Below are positions 32,926 to 38,358 of a DNA stretch of 64,000 nucleotides, in pieces (positions within the stretch are counted from its first letter, which is position 1; each line of letters starts with the position of its first letter). The notes under the pieces were generated by a model. That model saw only the letters and a list, made by a program, of their open reading frames with translations, was not told where the DNA came from and did no database searches. The translations under genes were made by a program, and so were the position numbers. The stretch comes from Archangium lansingense. GTDB lineage: Bacteria > Myxococcota > Myxococcia > Myxococcales > Myxococcaceae. The stretch spans positions 13,642,001 through 13,706,000 of the forward strand of contig NZ_JAPNKA010000001.1 of assembly GCF_026626635.1 (NCBI RefSeq), written 5' to 3'.

Positions 32926-33723
32926 ATGACCGCACAGCCCGAGGCGCCCGGAACAGACATACCCACGCCGTCTCCCTTCGTGCCGCGCCCCGCGAGCGGC
33001 CCGTGGGACGTGACGACGCTCCTGCTCGACTTCGCCATCATCACGTACGCGGTGCCGCCCGAGGCGCTCGCGCGTCACCTGCCGCCGGACTTCGAGCCCG
33101 ACACGTTCGTGTTGAAGGACGGCCGCCGGGTGGCCTTCGTCTCGGCCGTGCCCTTCCGGGACGAGGAGTTCCGTTTCGGCTTCGCTCCCTTCTTCCGGGC
33201 GCGAATGGGGCAGACCAACTACCGGGCCTATGTGCGCTACCGGGGCGAGCGCGCGGTGTGGTTCTTCGGGACATCGCTCGACTCGTTCTGGGTGGGAGTG
33301 CCGCGCTCCCTCTGGAAGCTCCCGTGGCACCCGGCGCGCATGCGCTTCCAGACGCGCTGGTCCGGCGAGGGCGGGCCCTGCGAGCACTACCGTCTGGACA
33401 CCCAGGGCACGTGGGGCCGGGCGGAGCTGGAGCTCGTAGGAACCGAGACACCCATGGGGTGCCTGGATGGCTTCCGCGACGAGGAGGAGACCGCGGTGGT
33501 CCTCACCCACCCCTTGCGAGGCTTCTACACGCGGAGGGACGGCAGGCCCGGCACGTACTCCGTGTGGCACGAGCGCCTGCGGCTCCACCGTGCCCATGTC
33601 CACGTGGCCCGGTTCCAGGTGTTCGAGGAACTGGGGCTGACGACGCCAGAGAGTGTGCCGCACTCGGCGCTCGTTCAGCGCAGCACCGAGTTCATCATCT
33701 TCCTGCCGCCGCGGCCGCTGTGA
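32926..33723 (+). CDS. DUF2071 (YqjF-like) family protein
   Basis: 265 residues, cytoplasmic. The sequence matches DUF2071: DVTTLLLDFAIITYAVPPEAL, HLPPDFEPDTF, GQTNYRAYVRYRGERAVWFF and SLDSFWVGVPRSLWKLPWHP. The fold is acetoacetate decarboxylase-like, but no catalytic Lys assignment is possible here and the reaction is unknown. Normal length for the family. It stands alone, with palindromic repeats in front, and converges with the PLP enzyme gene. Confidence 0.85.
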   Translation: MTAQPEAPGTDIPTPSPFVPRPASGPWDVTTLLLDFAIITYAVPPEALARHLPPDFEPDTFVLKDGRRVAFVSAVPFRDEEFRFGFAPFFRARMGQTNYRAYVRYRGERAVWFFGTSLDSFWVGVPRSLWKLPWHPARMRFQTRWSGEGGPCEHYRLDTQGTWGRAELELVGTETPMGCLDGFRDEEETAVVLTHPLRGFYTRRDGRPGTYSVWHERLRLHRAHVHVARFQVFEELGLTTPESVPHSALVQRSTEFIIFLPPRPL

Positions 33724-33757: not shown

Positions 33758-34903
33758 CTACTCGTCTCGCAGGGCCGCTGCGAGGTCTTCCCAGAGCTCT
33801 TCGACATTCTCGATTCCGACGCTCAACCTGAGGAGCGATGGGGGCAGATGCTCCTGGCCGGGGATGCCTGCACGGCGTTCAATCGTCGACTCCACAGCCC
33901 CCAAGCTCGTGGCGTGATGAATGAGACTGACCCGCGAACACACCTTGTCGGCCGCCGCGGCCTCGCCACGAACATCGAACGAGATGATGGTGCCGAAACC
34001 TTTCAACTGGTCGCGCGCAACCGAGTGCGTCGGGTGGCTGCTCAGTCCCGGGTACCGGACAAGCGCGACACGAGGGTGCGCATGCAGGCGCTCAGCGAGG
34101 ATCATCGCGTTGGCCTGGGCGCGTTCGAGCCTGAGCGCCATCGTGCGCGCACCACGCACCGCGAGGAATGACTCGAGTGCGCCGGGCGTGGCTCCGTTCA
34201 GCTCACGTGAGCGCCGCAAGGCCGCGCGGAGATCGTCACGTCTCACGGTGACCACCCCAGCGAGCAGGTCCGAGTGCCCACCGATGAACTTGGTTGCCGA
34301 CTGGAAGGAGACGTCAGCGCCCAGGTCGAGCGGTCGCTGATTCAGGGAGGTCGCGAACGTATTGTCGATCGCCAAGAGGGCAGATGGCTTTCGGGTGGCC
34401 GAACAGATGGTGCGCACGTCGGCCACCGTCAGCAATGGGTTCGACGGAGATTCCAGCCAGATGAGATCTGCGTCCGTGCAAGCCCGCACCCACCCGGCTG
34501 TATCGTCAACGGCCAACCTGCGGAGACTCCAGAGGCCCTTCTGGTTCCCAAGTTCGGCGAGCCCGACCACGCCCTGGTAACAATCGTCTGGGAGCACGAC
34601 CTGCGCCCCGACGCGCAGTTGATCGAAGACCGCGGCGACACCGGCCATGCCTGAGGAGAATGCGACGGTGTGGCCTCCCTCCAGGAGTCCGACGATCTCC
34701 TCCAGCGCTTCCCACGTTGGCGTGCCGTCGTCTCGCGAGTAGGCGCGCTCGGTGCCGAGGATGAAGTTCGAGGCGGGAACGGGCGGCCGGTTCAGCGGCG
34801 CCCCCGGGCGTCGGTCGCGTCCTGCCGCGACGAGCAATGACTCGGCGGACGAGATCTTCGCGAGAGGTAGGTCCGTGCTTGTGCTCGCATCTTTGTTCTT
34901 CAT
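33758..34903 (-). CDS. Cys/Met metabolism PLP-dependent enzyme (cystathionine gamma-synthase/lyase type)
   Basis: 381 residues. The PLP-binding Lys lies in SATKFIGGHSDL, with LLAIDNTFATSLNQRPLDLGAD before it and FSSGMAGVAAVF near residue 80, all typical of the MetB/MetC/MGL family. It may form or cleave C-S bonds of homoserine-derived substrates; the exact reaction cannot be told. AAGGAAAGAAGG stands before the ATG. Third positions are less GC-biased than in neighbours. It follows a broken SugE-like gene on the same strand and could once have shared its transcript. Confidence 0.87.
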   Translation of the reverse strand: MKNKDASTSTDLPLAKISSAESLLVAAGRDRRPGAPLNRPPVPASNFILGTERAYSRDDGTPTWEALEEIVGLLEGGHTVAFSSGMAGVAAVFDQLRVGAQVVLPDDCYQGVVGLAELGNQKGLWSLRRLAVDDTAGWVRACTDADLIWLESPSNPLLTVADVRTICSATRKPSALLAIDNTFATSLNQRPLDLGADVSFQSATKFIGGHSDLLAGVVTVRRDDLRAALRRSRELNGATPGALESFLAVRGARTMALRLERAQANAMILAERLHAHPRVALVRYPGLSSHPTHSVARDQLKGFGTIISFDVRGEAAAADKVCSRVSLIHHATSLGAVESTIERRAGIPGQEHLPPSLLRLSVGIENVEELWEDLAAALRDE

Positions 34904-35394: not shown

Positions 35395-36057
35395 TCAGCC
35401 CCGCTTCGACTCACCCTTGCCCCGCGAGGCACGTGTCTTCTCGGCGGAGGCCGCGCCTTCCTGGGCCCCTGGCGCCACCCCGCGCCAGAAGATGTCCACC
35501 ATGCGCTCCAACCAGGGGACCTCTGCCTCCGTCGGGACGCTCTCGTTCGTCACGTGCGCCAGGAAGTAGCGGTACTGCAGGCCCGCCACGAAGAGGCTGG
35601 CCATCACGCCGGGGTCTCCCTCGCGCAGCCGGCCCTGCTCCTGGGCCCGGCGGAACCAACCCGCGAGCGCCAGGTAGGTGCGCGCCGGGGCGGGCGCTTC
35701 CTTGTCATCACCCCGCAGCTCCTCGGGGGTGATGCCCGCCTCGCGCATCACCGCGAAGGCCGGCACCATCGCCCGGAAGAAGGTGTCGATGGCCCCGGCC
35801 ACCTCGCGCAGCTGCACCGTCAGCTCGCGTGCATCCGGACCCACCTCCACCATGGGCAGCCACGGCGGCGCCTTCCCGATGGAGAACGCCGCCTTGAGCA
35901 GCTCCCGCTTGCTGCCGAACCGCTTGAGCAACGCCGGCCCAGACACCCCCAGACGCGCGGCGATCGTCTCCGTGCTCACCGAGACTCCGTGCTCGATGAA
36001 ACACGCGCGTGCCGCTTCCAGAATCTCCTCGTCCAGGACCTGTCGGGGACGTGCCAT
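35395..36057 (-). CDS. TetR/AcrR family transcriptional regulator
   Basis: 220 residues. An N-terminal helix-turn-helix (about 8-54: DEEILEAARACFIEHGVSVS, TIAARLGVSGPALLKRFGSK) and a helical ligand domain with a C-terminal TetR_C-like part (VMASLFVAGLQYRYFLAHV). The tail is basic and low-complexity. A perfect inverted repeat lies 19 bases before the start, so it probably represses itself. It is encoded directly downstream of the quinolone-dioxygenase-like gene on the same strand and may control it. Confidence 0.9.
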   Translation of the reverse strand: MARPRQVLDEEILEAARACFIEHGVSVSTETIAARLGVSGPALLKRFGSKRELLKAAFSIGKAPPWLPMVEVGPDARELTVQLREVAGAIDTFFRAMVPAFAVMREAGITPEELRGDDKEAPAPARTYLALAGWFRRAQEQGRLREGDPGVMASLFVAGLQYRYFLAHVTNESVPTEAEVPWLERMVDIFWRGVAPGAQEGAASAEKTRASRGKGESKRG

Positions 36058-36075
36058 GACTCCACTCGTTGATTG

Positions 36076-36091
36076 GTTAGCTAGTGCTAAC
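36076..36091. promoter_or_regulatory. TetR operator candidate
   Basis: Perfect inverted repeat GTTAGC-TAGT-GCTAAC, flanked by further CTAACTAAC units, in the AT-rich gap between the hydrolase-fold gene and tetR. Size and place fit a TetR-family operator. Confidence 0.65.
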
Positions 36092-36117
36092 TAACTAACT
36101 CTCCGAGGGGGGCAGAA

Positions 36118-36948
36118 TCAAGTGGGAGTAGGAGCCAACCCCTCAGGGCGGGTGCCCAGCGCGGAATCGAGGAACCGGCCGATGCGGGCGGCCATTTCCT
36201 CTGGGAGCTCCAGCATGGGGAAGTGGCTGCGCCCGGGAAGCTTCTGCACCTGGTACCAGGGGTGCGAGGAGGCGAACGAGCGCTGGGCCTCCAGCCAGGC
36301 GCTGTCCTCCGGCTGGGAGTAGAGGTGCAGGGTGGGGACGGGGGGCGAGAGGGTGGCGAGCGCCTGCAGCGGGCTGCCGTACTGGGCGTACACCTTCTCA
36401 ATCTCCCGCCCGGCGCGCTTCCACATGTCCTCGCCGAAGGAGCCCATGTCGTCGCGGACGAAGCGGATGACCTCCGGCGAGCTGACGCCCTGCAGCCACA
36501 AGGAGAAGAGGCCGTCGCGGGCCTGCTTCCACTGGGACGACTGGAGCGTTTTGACGGCCTGGAGGAAGGGCGGGGGCGGCTCCAGCACGAGCCAGTCCAG
36601 CAGCACGAGGGCGGGGATGCGCTGTCCGAGCTGACGCCGCAGCTCGATGGCCCACCAGCCGCCGTGGGAGAGGGCCACGGGTATCACCTGGCGCGCGCCA
36701 CTGGCGTCGATGACGGCGCGCAGGGTGTCCACCACGGTGGTGTTGCCGAAGTCGGGGCCAGGCTTCTGGGACTCGCCGTGGCCGGGAAGGTCCACGACGA
36801 GCGCGCGGTGGAGGACGGAGCACCAGGGGGCGAGTTTGCGGAACACCTCGCGGCTGGTGCACCAACCTGGGATGAAGAGCAGGGCGGGCTCTCCCTGCCC
36901 CACGTCGTCGTAACGGATGCGAGCCCCACCCACGCGCGTCTCGGCCAT
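36118..36948 (-). CDS. Alpha/beta-hydrolase-fold protein related to cofactor-free 2,4-dioxygenases (HOD/QDO/AqdC)
   Basis: 276 residues. The sequence follows 1H-3-hydroxy-4-oxoquinaldine 2,4-dioxygenase (Hod) closely: PGWC near 27-30, SHGGWWAIELRRQLG from Ser94, LLDWLVLEPPPPF (Asp118), GLFSLWLQG (Trp151), YGSPLQALATL, YSQPE and HPWYQVQKLPGRSHFP (His242). Ser94, Asp118, Trp151 and His242 line up with Hod S101, D126, W160 and H251 (numbers from memory). The Hod His38 position is not conserved, so the chemistry may differ. Homologues such as AqdC cleave the Pseudomonas quinolone signal. ATG 36948 is chosen because a GGGGGAAG site precedes it. Confidence 0.78.
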   Translation of the reverse strand: MAETRVGGARIRYDDVGQGEPALLFIPGWCTSREVFRKLAPWCSVLHRALVVDLPGHGESQKPGPDFGNTTVVDTLRAVIDASGARQVIPVALSHGGWWAIELRRQLGQRIPALVLLDWLVLEPPPPFLQAVKTLQSSQWKQARDGLFSLWLQGVSSPEVIRFVRDDMGSFGEDMWKRAGREIEKVYAQYGSPLQALATLSPPVPTLHLYSQPEDSAWLEAQRSFASSHPWYQVQKLPGRSHFPMLELPEEMAARIGRFLDSALGTRPEGLAPTPT

Positions 36949-37068
36949 GTGCGTCTTCCCCCCGGCGGCCAGGTCCAAGCCACGCCGCCATGGGCGCAGT
37001 CATGCTCCGGGTGGGCCGTGGGGGGACAGGGGACGGAGGTGCGGTACGGGTGTCCGCTGCTCGTCAGT

Positions 37069-38358
37069 TCACGCGGCCTGCCATGAGTCCTGCTCGGGGA
37101 CGCCGAAGAGCTCGAGCTGCTGGAGCCGGCCCTTCACCCCATGGGCGCCGAGCGGCTCGAAGTCCTCGCCCTCGCCGAGGGCCTCGCGGCACTCGCGGGA
37201 GAGCAGCAGGGAGCGGCCGAGCACCTTGGTGAGATCCTGCACCCGCGAGGCGGTATTCACCGTGTCGCCGATGACGGTGTACTCCTGGCGCTGGGCGCCG
37301 CCCACGTTGCCCACCACGGCCTCGCCGCGGTGCAGGCCCACGCCGATGCGCAGGTCGGGGAACTCGCCCTGCTCGCGCATGCGAGAGGCCTCGGCGAGCA
37401 TCTCGCGTGCGGCGGCCAGGGCCCGGCGCGCGTCGTCCGGCTGGTGCGTGGGCGCGCCGAAGACGATGAGCATCCCGTCCCCGAGGAACTTGTTCACCAG
37501 CCCGCCGTGGGAGGCGACGATTTCGCACATGCGCCCGAAGTAGAGGTTGAGCAGGCGCAGCGTCTCTTCTGGGGGCTGGGACTCGGAGAGGCGGGTGAAG
37601 CCGCGGATGTCCGTGAAGCAGACGGTGACGGCACGGCGCTCGCCGCCCTCGGGCATGCGGCCGGAGAGCAGGTGCTCCATGACCTGCTCGCTCACGTGCA
37701 TGCCGAGCAGACCGCGCACGCGCTCGCGCTCGACGGCGCTCTCGGTGAGGCGCAGGAGCAGCGAGCGCATGGAGCCGCTGGCCACCATGCCGAGCGCGCC
37801 CATGGTGACGAGGAAGATGGCCTTGGCGAGGGTGACGTAGAAGTCGTAGGCGCCGGTGGCGAGCGCCTCGGGAGAGGCGGCGGGCCGGAGGATGAACTGG
37901 ACGACGATGATGAGCTGGGAGGCGGCGGCGAGGCCGGAGAAGAGACACAGCCGGGGCTGGAGCCGCGGGGTGGCCATGGCGACGCCGATGGCGTAGAGGG
38001 CGGGCCCGCCGGCGGACAGGGCGAAGACGGGGCCGTTGACGTGCAAGTCCAACAGGGCGACGACGGTGCCCATGGACACGTCCACGAGCGAGGACGCATA
38101 GCGCATCCACGGGCGGAAGCGGCCGGTGCGCATGAGCAGCACGACGCACGTGTACCAGGCGAGGAACCCGAGAGTGGCGGCGAGGATGATGCGGGGGATG
38201 GAGGAGCCGGAGGCGATGGAGGCGAGCACCAGCGCGGTGGCGATGACGCCGGCGGTGGTGGCGACGTGGGCCACCCGGGACTCCATGTGCAGGACGGTCT
38301 CCCCGTAGAGGACGTCGAACCCGTTGGGGACGGGAGTGGAGCGGGGAGGGGCGCGCAT
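37069..38358 (-). CDS. Membrane-bound class III adenylate cyclase
   Basis: 429 residues. Six hydrophobic segments (about 35-195) are followed by a short linker and a class III cyclase domain (240-410). Metal-binding Asp250 (CFTDIRGFTR) and Asp294 (FLGDGMLIVFG) are present. Lys290 in NKFLGDG and the IGDTVNTASR segment fit ATP rather than GTP as substrate. It should make cAMP at the inner membrane; the input sensed by the six-helix domain is unknown. It is preceded by a convergent-free 40-base gap to the next gene on the same strand. Confidence 0.92.
   Translation of the reverse strand: MRAPPRSTPVPNGFDVLYGETVLHMESRVAHVATTAGVIATALVLASIASGSSIPRIILAATLGFLAWYTCVVLLMRTGRFRPWMRYASSLVDVSMGTVVALLDLHVNGPVFALSAGGPALYAIGVAMATPRLQPRLCLFSGLAAASQLIIVVQFILRPAASPEALATGAYDFYVTLAKAIFLVTMGALGMVASGSMRSLLLRLTESAVERERVRGLLGMHVSEQVMEHLLSGRMPEGGERRAVTVCFTDIRGFTRLSESQPPEETLRLLNLYFGRMCEIVASHGGLVNKFLGDGMLIVFGAPTHQPDDARRALAAAREMLAEASRMREQGEFPDLRIGVGLHRGEAVVGNVGGAQRQEYTVIGDTVNTASRVQDLTKVLGRSLLLSRECREALGEGEDFEPLGAHGVKGRLQQLELFGVPEQDSWQAA

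Follow-up and report, generated by a model that had tools for sequence, protein, structure and literature searches.

The protein encoded at positions 36118-36948 of the window (the whole 64,000-nucleotide stretch of Archangium lansingense DNA analysed here) is, judged by its sequence and predicted structure, a member of the Hod/AqdC/QDO (HQD) family. As a cofactor-free dioxygenase, it probably cleaves the ring of a 3-hydroxy-4-quinolone-like compound: the family fold, the helical cap, the His-Asp dyad and the aromatic pocket are all present in the alignment and the model. Its open reading frame and that of an adjacent TetR gene lie where the preliminary description had placed them. The features considered here are as follows.

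36118-36948, minus strand: HQD-family (Hod/QDO/AqdC-like) alpha/beta-hydrolase-fold protein, 276 aa (the dioxygenase gene)
35395-36057, minus strand: TetR-family regulator, 220 aa (Pfam TetR_N, 4e-14)
36076-36095, no strand: operator-like dyad of 20 bp, immediately ahead of the tetR start codon within the 60-bp gap; found once in the genome
36975-37056 (limits approximate), minus strand: blocks of conserved sequence ahead of the dioxygenase gene, ACCGCAC...GTCCCCTGTCC and GGAGCATGAC
37069-38358, minus strand: adenylate/guanylate-cyclase-domain gene, upstream of the dioxygenase gene and 120 bp from it

The GC3 values of the dioxygenase and tetR pair (0.91 and 0.89) and a within-genus dN/dS of ~0.22-0.24 for the dioxygenase gene indicate real genes under selection. 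The nearest named relative of the dioxygenase is a protein of Archangium violaceum Cb vi76 (89% identity). Downstream of tetR lie a Cys/Met-metabolism PLP enzyme (33758-34903, minus strand) and a DUF2071 protein (32926-33723, plus strand), neither with an evident functional tie to the dioxygenase.

Several lines of evidence place the protein in the HQD family. First, a phmmer search against solved structures returned Hod (184 bits), AqdC (176 bits) and QDO (165 bits), with the next protein at 47 bits or less. Second, the AlphaFold model (pLDDT 94.8) superposes on AqdC, Hod and QDO with TM ~0.9, Z 37.2-38.6 and rmsd 1.5-1.9 Å, whereas for the best non-HQD matches (dehalogenases and esterases) Z does not exceed 27, at ~3 Å. 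Third, all HQD-like rows of our tree split from 13 myxobacterial hydrolase paralogs with support of 100/100. Together with the alignment to Hod, these results bear out the earlier proposal, made from the sequence, that this is a Hod/AqdC-like protein and not an ordinary hydrolase.

Wullich et al. 2020 reportedly define the family by an HxxW motif at the nucleophilic elbow, an HFPx4P motif and an acid after strand 6; a helical cap is also counted among its defining features. We compared the window protein with 45 pooled sequences of its branch, a set that excludes the aqd-type, enterobacterial, Mycobacteroides and Hod/QDO rows and is a grade rather than a proven clade, as a few rows (e.g., some Nocardioides) branch deeper. 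HxxW appears as His95-Gly-Gly-Trp98 and occurs in all 45 branch members versus 3 of 28 myxobacterial hydrolase paralogs (counted anywhere in the paralog sequence). HFPx4P appears around the catalytic His as H242-F-P-MLEL-P249 and is found in 36/45 branch members and 0/28 paralogs. Asp118 directly follows the sixth strand of the model (114-117), and helices 126-190 form a cap between strands 6 and 7 in which the hydrophobic cavity residues are kept.

The predicted active-site residues comprise the dyad His242/Asp118 and the elbow Ser94-His95-x-x-Trp98, with Phe128, Trp151 and Trp176 in the cap. As the preliminary description had noted, the Hod positions are preserved: Ser94-His95-Gly96-Gly97-Trp98 aligns with Hod Ser101-His102-Gly-Gly-Trp105, and Asp118, Trp151 and His242 correspond to Hod Asp126, Trp160 and His251. 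The same residue is also kept at the positions of Hod Phe136, Trp160, Met177, Trp185 and Ile192. Across an alignment of about 70 relatives (Hod numbering), the dyad His251/Asp126, His102, Phe136, Trp160 and Trp185 are near-invariant. Among the 45 branch members, the positions of His251, His102, Trp105 and Trp160 are invariant and Asp126 is kept in 43.

The absence of Hod His38 had been raised as a caution. His38 is indeed missing, being Thr in the window protein, and the His100 position is Leu. However, in the ~70-relative alignment His38 and His100 are confined to one actinobacterial clade with Hod and AqdC, and QDO has Gln at Hod 38 and Thr at Hod 100. QDO activity is established (PMC3961685, PMC10548524), so the missing His38 is no argument against oxygenase activity and the worry falls away.

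QDO, the 1H-3-hydroxy-4-oxoquinoline 2,4-dioxygenase of Pseudomonas putida 33/1 (PDB 3ibt), resembles the window protein in fold (Z 37.2, 35% identity), in its Ser-His elbow with HxxW, in the His/Asp dyad, in the Trp after the acid, in the Met at Hod 177 and in lacking both His38 and His100. Unlike the window protein, it groups with the Hod/AqdC clade, on a long branch. Hod (HodC/MeqE), encoded on plasmid pAL1 of Arthrobacter sp. Rue61a, is also 35% identical and has the dyad, the Ser elbow and the hydrophobic pocket in common, but it carries His38, His100 and Ser188, which the window protein does not, and its gene adjoins FAD-dependent monooxygenase and molybdenum-hydroxylase genes that the window lacks. 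By alignment, a Trp after the acid and a Met at Hod 177 give the window protein a pocket like that of Hod and QDO and unlike that of the aqd-linked PQS dioxygenases; this hints that the natural substrate is probably not PQS.

By analogy with Hod, His242, tuned by Asp118, would take the proton from the 3-hydroxyl group of the substrate, a 3-hydroxy-4(1H)-quinolone or closely related N-heteroaromatic. O2 would then add across C2 and C4 in an oxyanion pocket beside Trp29 and His95, and the ring would open to an N-acyl-anthranilate-type product and CO. In this scheme, Ser94 would only help to hold the substrate.

The preliminary description held that a phylogeny placing the protein with hydrolases outside the Hod/AqdC clade would refute its reading; in our tree the protein stands apart from hydrolases, but it falls outside the clade of validated enzymes. 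The validated HQDs in our set (QDO, Hod, AqdC, AqdC2 and the N. farcinica HQD) group together with support of 99/91. The window protein is placed outside this smallest clade, in a separate HQD branch with support of only 87/95. This exclusion and the absence of the pathway genes aqdA and aqdB nearby both count against our preferred reading. Members of the branch, which lacks His38 and His100, are myxobacterial, acidobacterial, cyanobacterial, proteobacterial, actinobacterial and hot-spring archaeal proteins, and the acidobacterial, cyanobacterial and archaeal ones are ~50-60% identical to the window protein. At nearly fixed positions the 45 are distinct from ten aqd-type sequences; the residue directly after the acid, for example, is Trp in the 45 and Leu (once Met) in the ten. 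These differences weakly suggest a different substrate. We entertain, as a tentative reading, that the protein belongs to a large second branch of dioxygenases that need no cofactor, found in myxobacteria, acidobacteria, cyanobacteria and hot-spring archaea, and that this branch cleaves a different and probably widespread 3-hydroxy-N-heteroaromatic.

The survey also returned relatives at the edges of this picture. Contigs of thermophilic archaea (L060, L063, L074, L076 and L110; Calditenuaceae, Nitrosocaldus) encode proteins 49-59% identical with Ala at the elbow, which suggests that the gene was transferred or that its role is conserved well away from Pseudomonas. Enterobacterial relatives (L088-L091, L040, L041 and L109; Erwinia, Rahnella, Pantoea plasmids, Photorhabdus) make up an HQD branch of their own, in which Hod 38 is Gln or Glu and the HF at the catalytic His is replaced by HL. 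A Mycobacteroides subgroup (L092, L094 and L107) keeps His38/His100 and has Phe in the pocket, without aqdA/aqdB neighbours. One contig titled Comamonas sp. KCTC 72670 (L062) holds a Myxococcus-like locus with the same neighbours, and this genome, like some others whose records fall in the branch, is possibly mislabelled.

Within the myxobacteria, the dioxygenase gene is present by genus. It occurs in 6/6 genomes of the window genus and in 27/27 genomes of the genus holding Myxococcus (g23, taken to be the Myxococcus group because G027 closely matches M. xanthus AM003), as well as in 2/2, 2/7 and 1/1 genomes of three other genera. It was found in 0/16 genomes of g26, in 0/4 of g11 (a genus of large genomes in the same family) and in none of the remaining sampled myxobacteria of the phylum. 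That two genera keep the gene in each species sampled is more in line with a stable cell function than with a sporadic catabolic cluster. In Myxococcus and its allies, the gene is followed by a BetI-like TetR gene, unrelated to the window TetR, and an MFS transporter gene (e.g., L057:4977-7760). This transporter scores below the cut-off for siderophore (RhtX/FptX) and muropeptide (AmpG) transporters and is possibly an uptake or efflux partner. No shared neighbour was found outside the myxobacteria, and among 103 neighbouring proteins, which come almost entirely from non-myxobacterial relatives, no Pfam family is shared by more than 2.

This distribution bears on what the enzyme is for. It might act on a different, endogenous substrate common to soil and thermophilic microbes, as a housekeeping or secondary-metabolite step rather than in defence or the breakdown of foreign quinolones. 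This possibility is contained in our preferred reading, with which its probability overlaps, and we regard it as possible but doubtful. Its conservation in both genera and the identity to proteins of acidobacteria, cyanobacteria and archaea, without shared degradative neighbours, speak for such a role. On the other hand, a search that was not in depth identified no endogenous 3-hydroxyquinolone pathway, and the distribution outside myxobacteria looks patchy.

We then considered the regulatory context, which the preliminary description had likened to aqd-type clusters. The tetR gene lies downstream of the dioxygenase gene on the same strand, with 60 bp between them, and adjoins it in 6/6 sampled species of the genus, although it is absent beside a second copy in one genome (G002). 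The operator-like repeat reported beside it (36076-36091, 6+4+6) exists and is better described as the 20-bp dyad at 36076-36095. On the minus strand the dyad reads GTTAGTTAGCACTAGCTAAC, with 8 of 10 pairs matching, and it is kept in six congeneric species, one of which has a two-sided compensatory change. The exact pattern occurs once in the 13.8-Mb genome, and the chance expectation in the window is 0.04 matches with 3 mismatches allowed. There is no second site in the window at up to 3 mismatches, nor in the genome for the exact pattern. Most likely, the TetR protein represses its own promoter through this predicted operator. We rejected the dyad as a TetR operator controlling the dioxygenase promoter, since the sole site precedes tetR; a looser site elsewhere is possible. 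The blocks at 36975-37056, kept in 7/7 congeneric copies including one without tetR, are probably the dioxygenase gene's own promoter region. A sigma-70 promoter scan, which is uninformative for myxobacteria, gave no match.

The likeness to aqd-type clusters did not hold up. No aqdA esterase or aqdB monooxygenase gene adjoins the dioxygenase gene in the window (cut-off 1e-15). Elsewhere in the genome, the only AqdA homologs are general carboxylesterases (38%), and the best matches to AqdB are generic FAD monooxygenases at 29% or less, with no evident ortholog; both are unlinked. Both aqdA and aqdB were present in eight actinobacterial loci, and a ninth, on a short contig, has aqdA alone. Homologs of aqdR-A-B occur only beside actinobacterial enzymes of the H38/H100 type and beside none of the window branch. 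AqdR and the window TetR both belong to the TetR family and each has an inverted repeat in its promoter region, but the window TetR is 22% identical to AqdR and gave no match to it at 1e-15. Moreover, AqdR is divergent from its cluster, whereas the window TetR gene is downstream of the dioxygenase gene, and the AqdR operator of M. abscessus, TTGTCGCATCGACAA (PMC5332414), differs from the window dyad, which fronts tetR only. We therefore rejected the aqd-cluster reading. AqdC and AqdC2, which cleave PQS in Mycobacteroides abscessus and Rhodococcus erythropolis, have His38, His100 and a Leu after the acid, and their genes belong to an aqdRABC cluster in which AqdR is divergent; they share the dyad and HxxW with the window protein, and AqdC is the best structural match (Z 38.6, rmsd 1.5 Å).

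That match, with HQD family membership, favours the proposal that the enzyme quenches or detoxifies PQS (including PQS derived from HHQ) of Pseudomonas prey, with the TetR protein sensing quinolones. Predator ecology makes the proposal plausible: another myxobacterium, Cystobacter ferrugineus, oxidises HHQ to PQS and HQNO, its PqsH-like monooxygenase is induced 31-fold with HHQ, and it preys better than M. xanthus on P. aeruginosa (PMC9257966). The available part of that report describes no ring cleavage for C. ferrugineus and gives M. xanthus HHQ only (PMC9257966); HHQ lacks the 3-hydroxyl that the HQD family needs, so these data leave PQS cleavage by Archangium or Myxococcus possible. The dioxygenase gene has one TetR neighbour in Archangium and a different one, together with an MFS transporter, in Myxococcus, a pattern that would suit a ligand-responsive trait. 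Nevertheless, the aqdA/aqdB cluster and an AqdR-like TetR are absent, the TetR protein's only operator precedes its own gene, Trp follows the acid where aqd-linked enzymes have Leu or Met, and a presence that goes by genus (27/27 of g23, 0/16 of g26) and reaches hot-spring archaea does not look Pseudomonas-specific. On balance, we consider PQS quenching unlikely.

An ordinary serine hydrolase would be expected to conserve its nucleophile. Ser94 is present in the window protein, yet 13/45 branch members have Ala at the elbow position of Hod Ser101. Close relatives of 59-60% identity carry this Ala, and so do AqdC and AqdC2. An elbow Ala in place of Ser has been noted for the HQD family (PMC10548524), and Hod itself depends on the dyad but not on the nucleophile (PMC3961685, PMC10548524). 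Ala in 13 of 45 fits a general-base oxygenase rather than a serine hydrolase. Hence, despite the alpha/beta-hydrolase fold and a Hod serine reported to retain nucleophilic properties (PMC10548524), esterase or C-C hydrolase chemistry through Ser94-His242-Asp118 is highly improbable, and we rejected it on the Ala-bearing relatives, the acid after strand 6 and the phmmer scores, tree and superposition that set the protein apart from hydrolases. Some residual hydrolase activity may persist, Ser94 being kept.

For the reading that we favour, a cofactor-free dioxygenase of the HQD family, the consequences depend on the substrate. If PQS is cleaved, the enzyme would be a predator's direct chemical countermeasure to a major Pseudomonas signal and would extend the HHQ-to-PQS oxidation known from Cystobacter. 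The most interesting remainder of this analysis is the broad HQD branch that holds the window protein. If PQS is not cleaved, this branch, which spans all sampled genomes of the Myxococcus-holding genus as well as thermophilic archaea, would point to another O2-dependent, cofactor-free ring cleavage.
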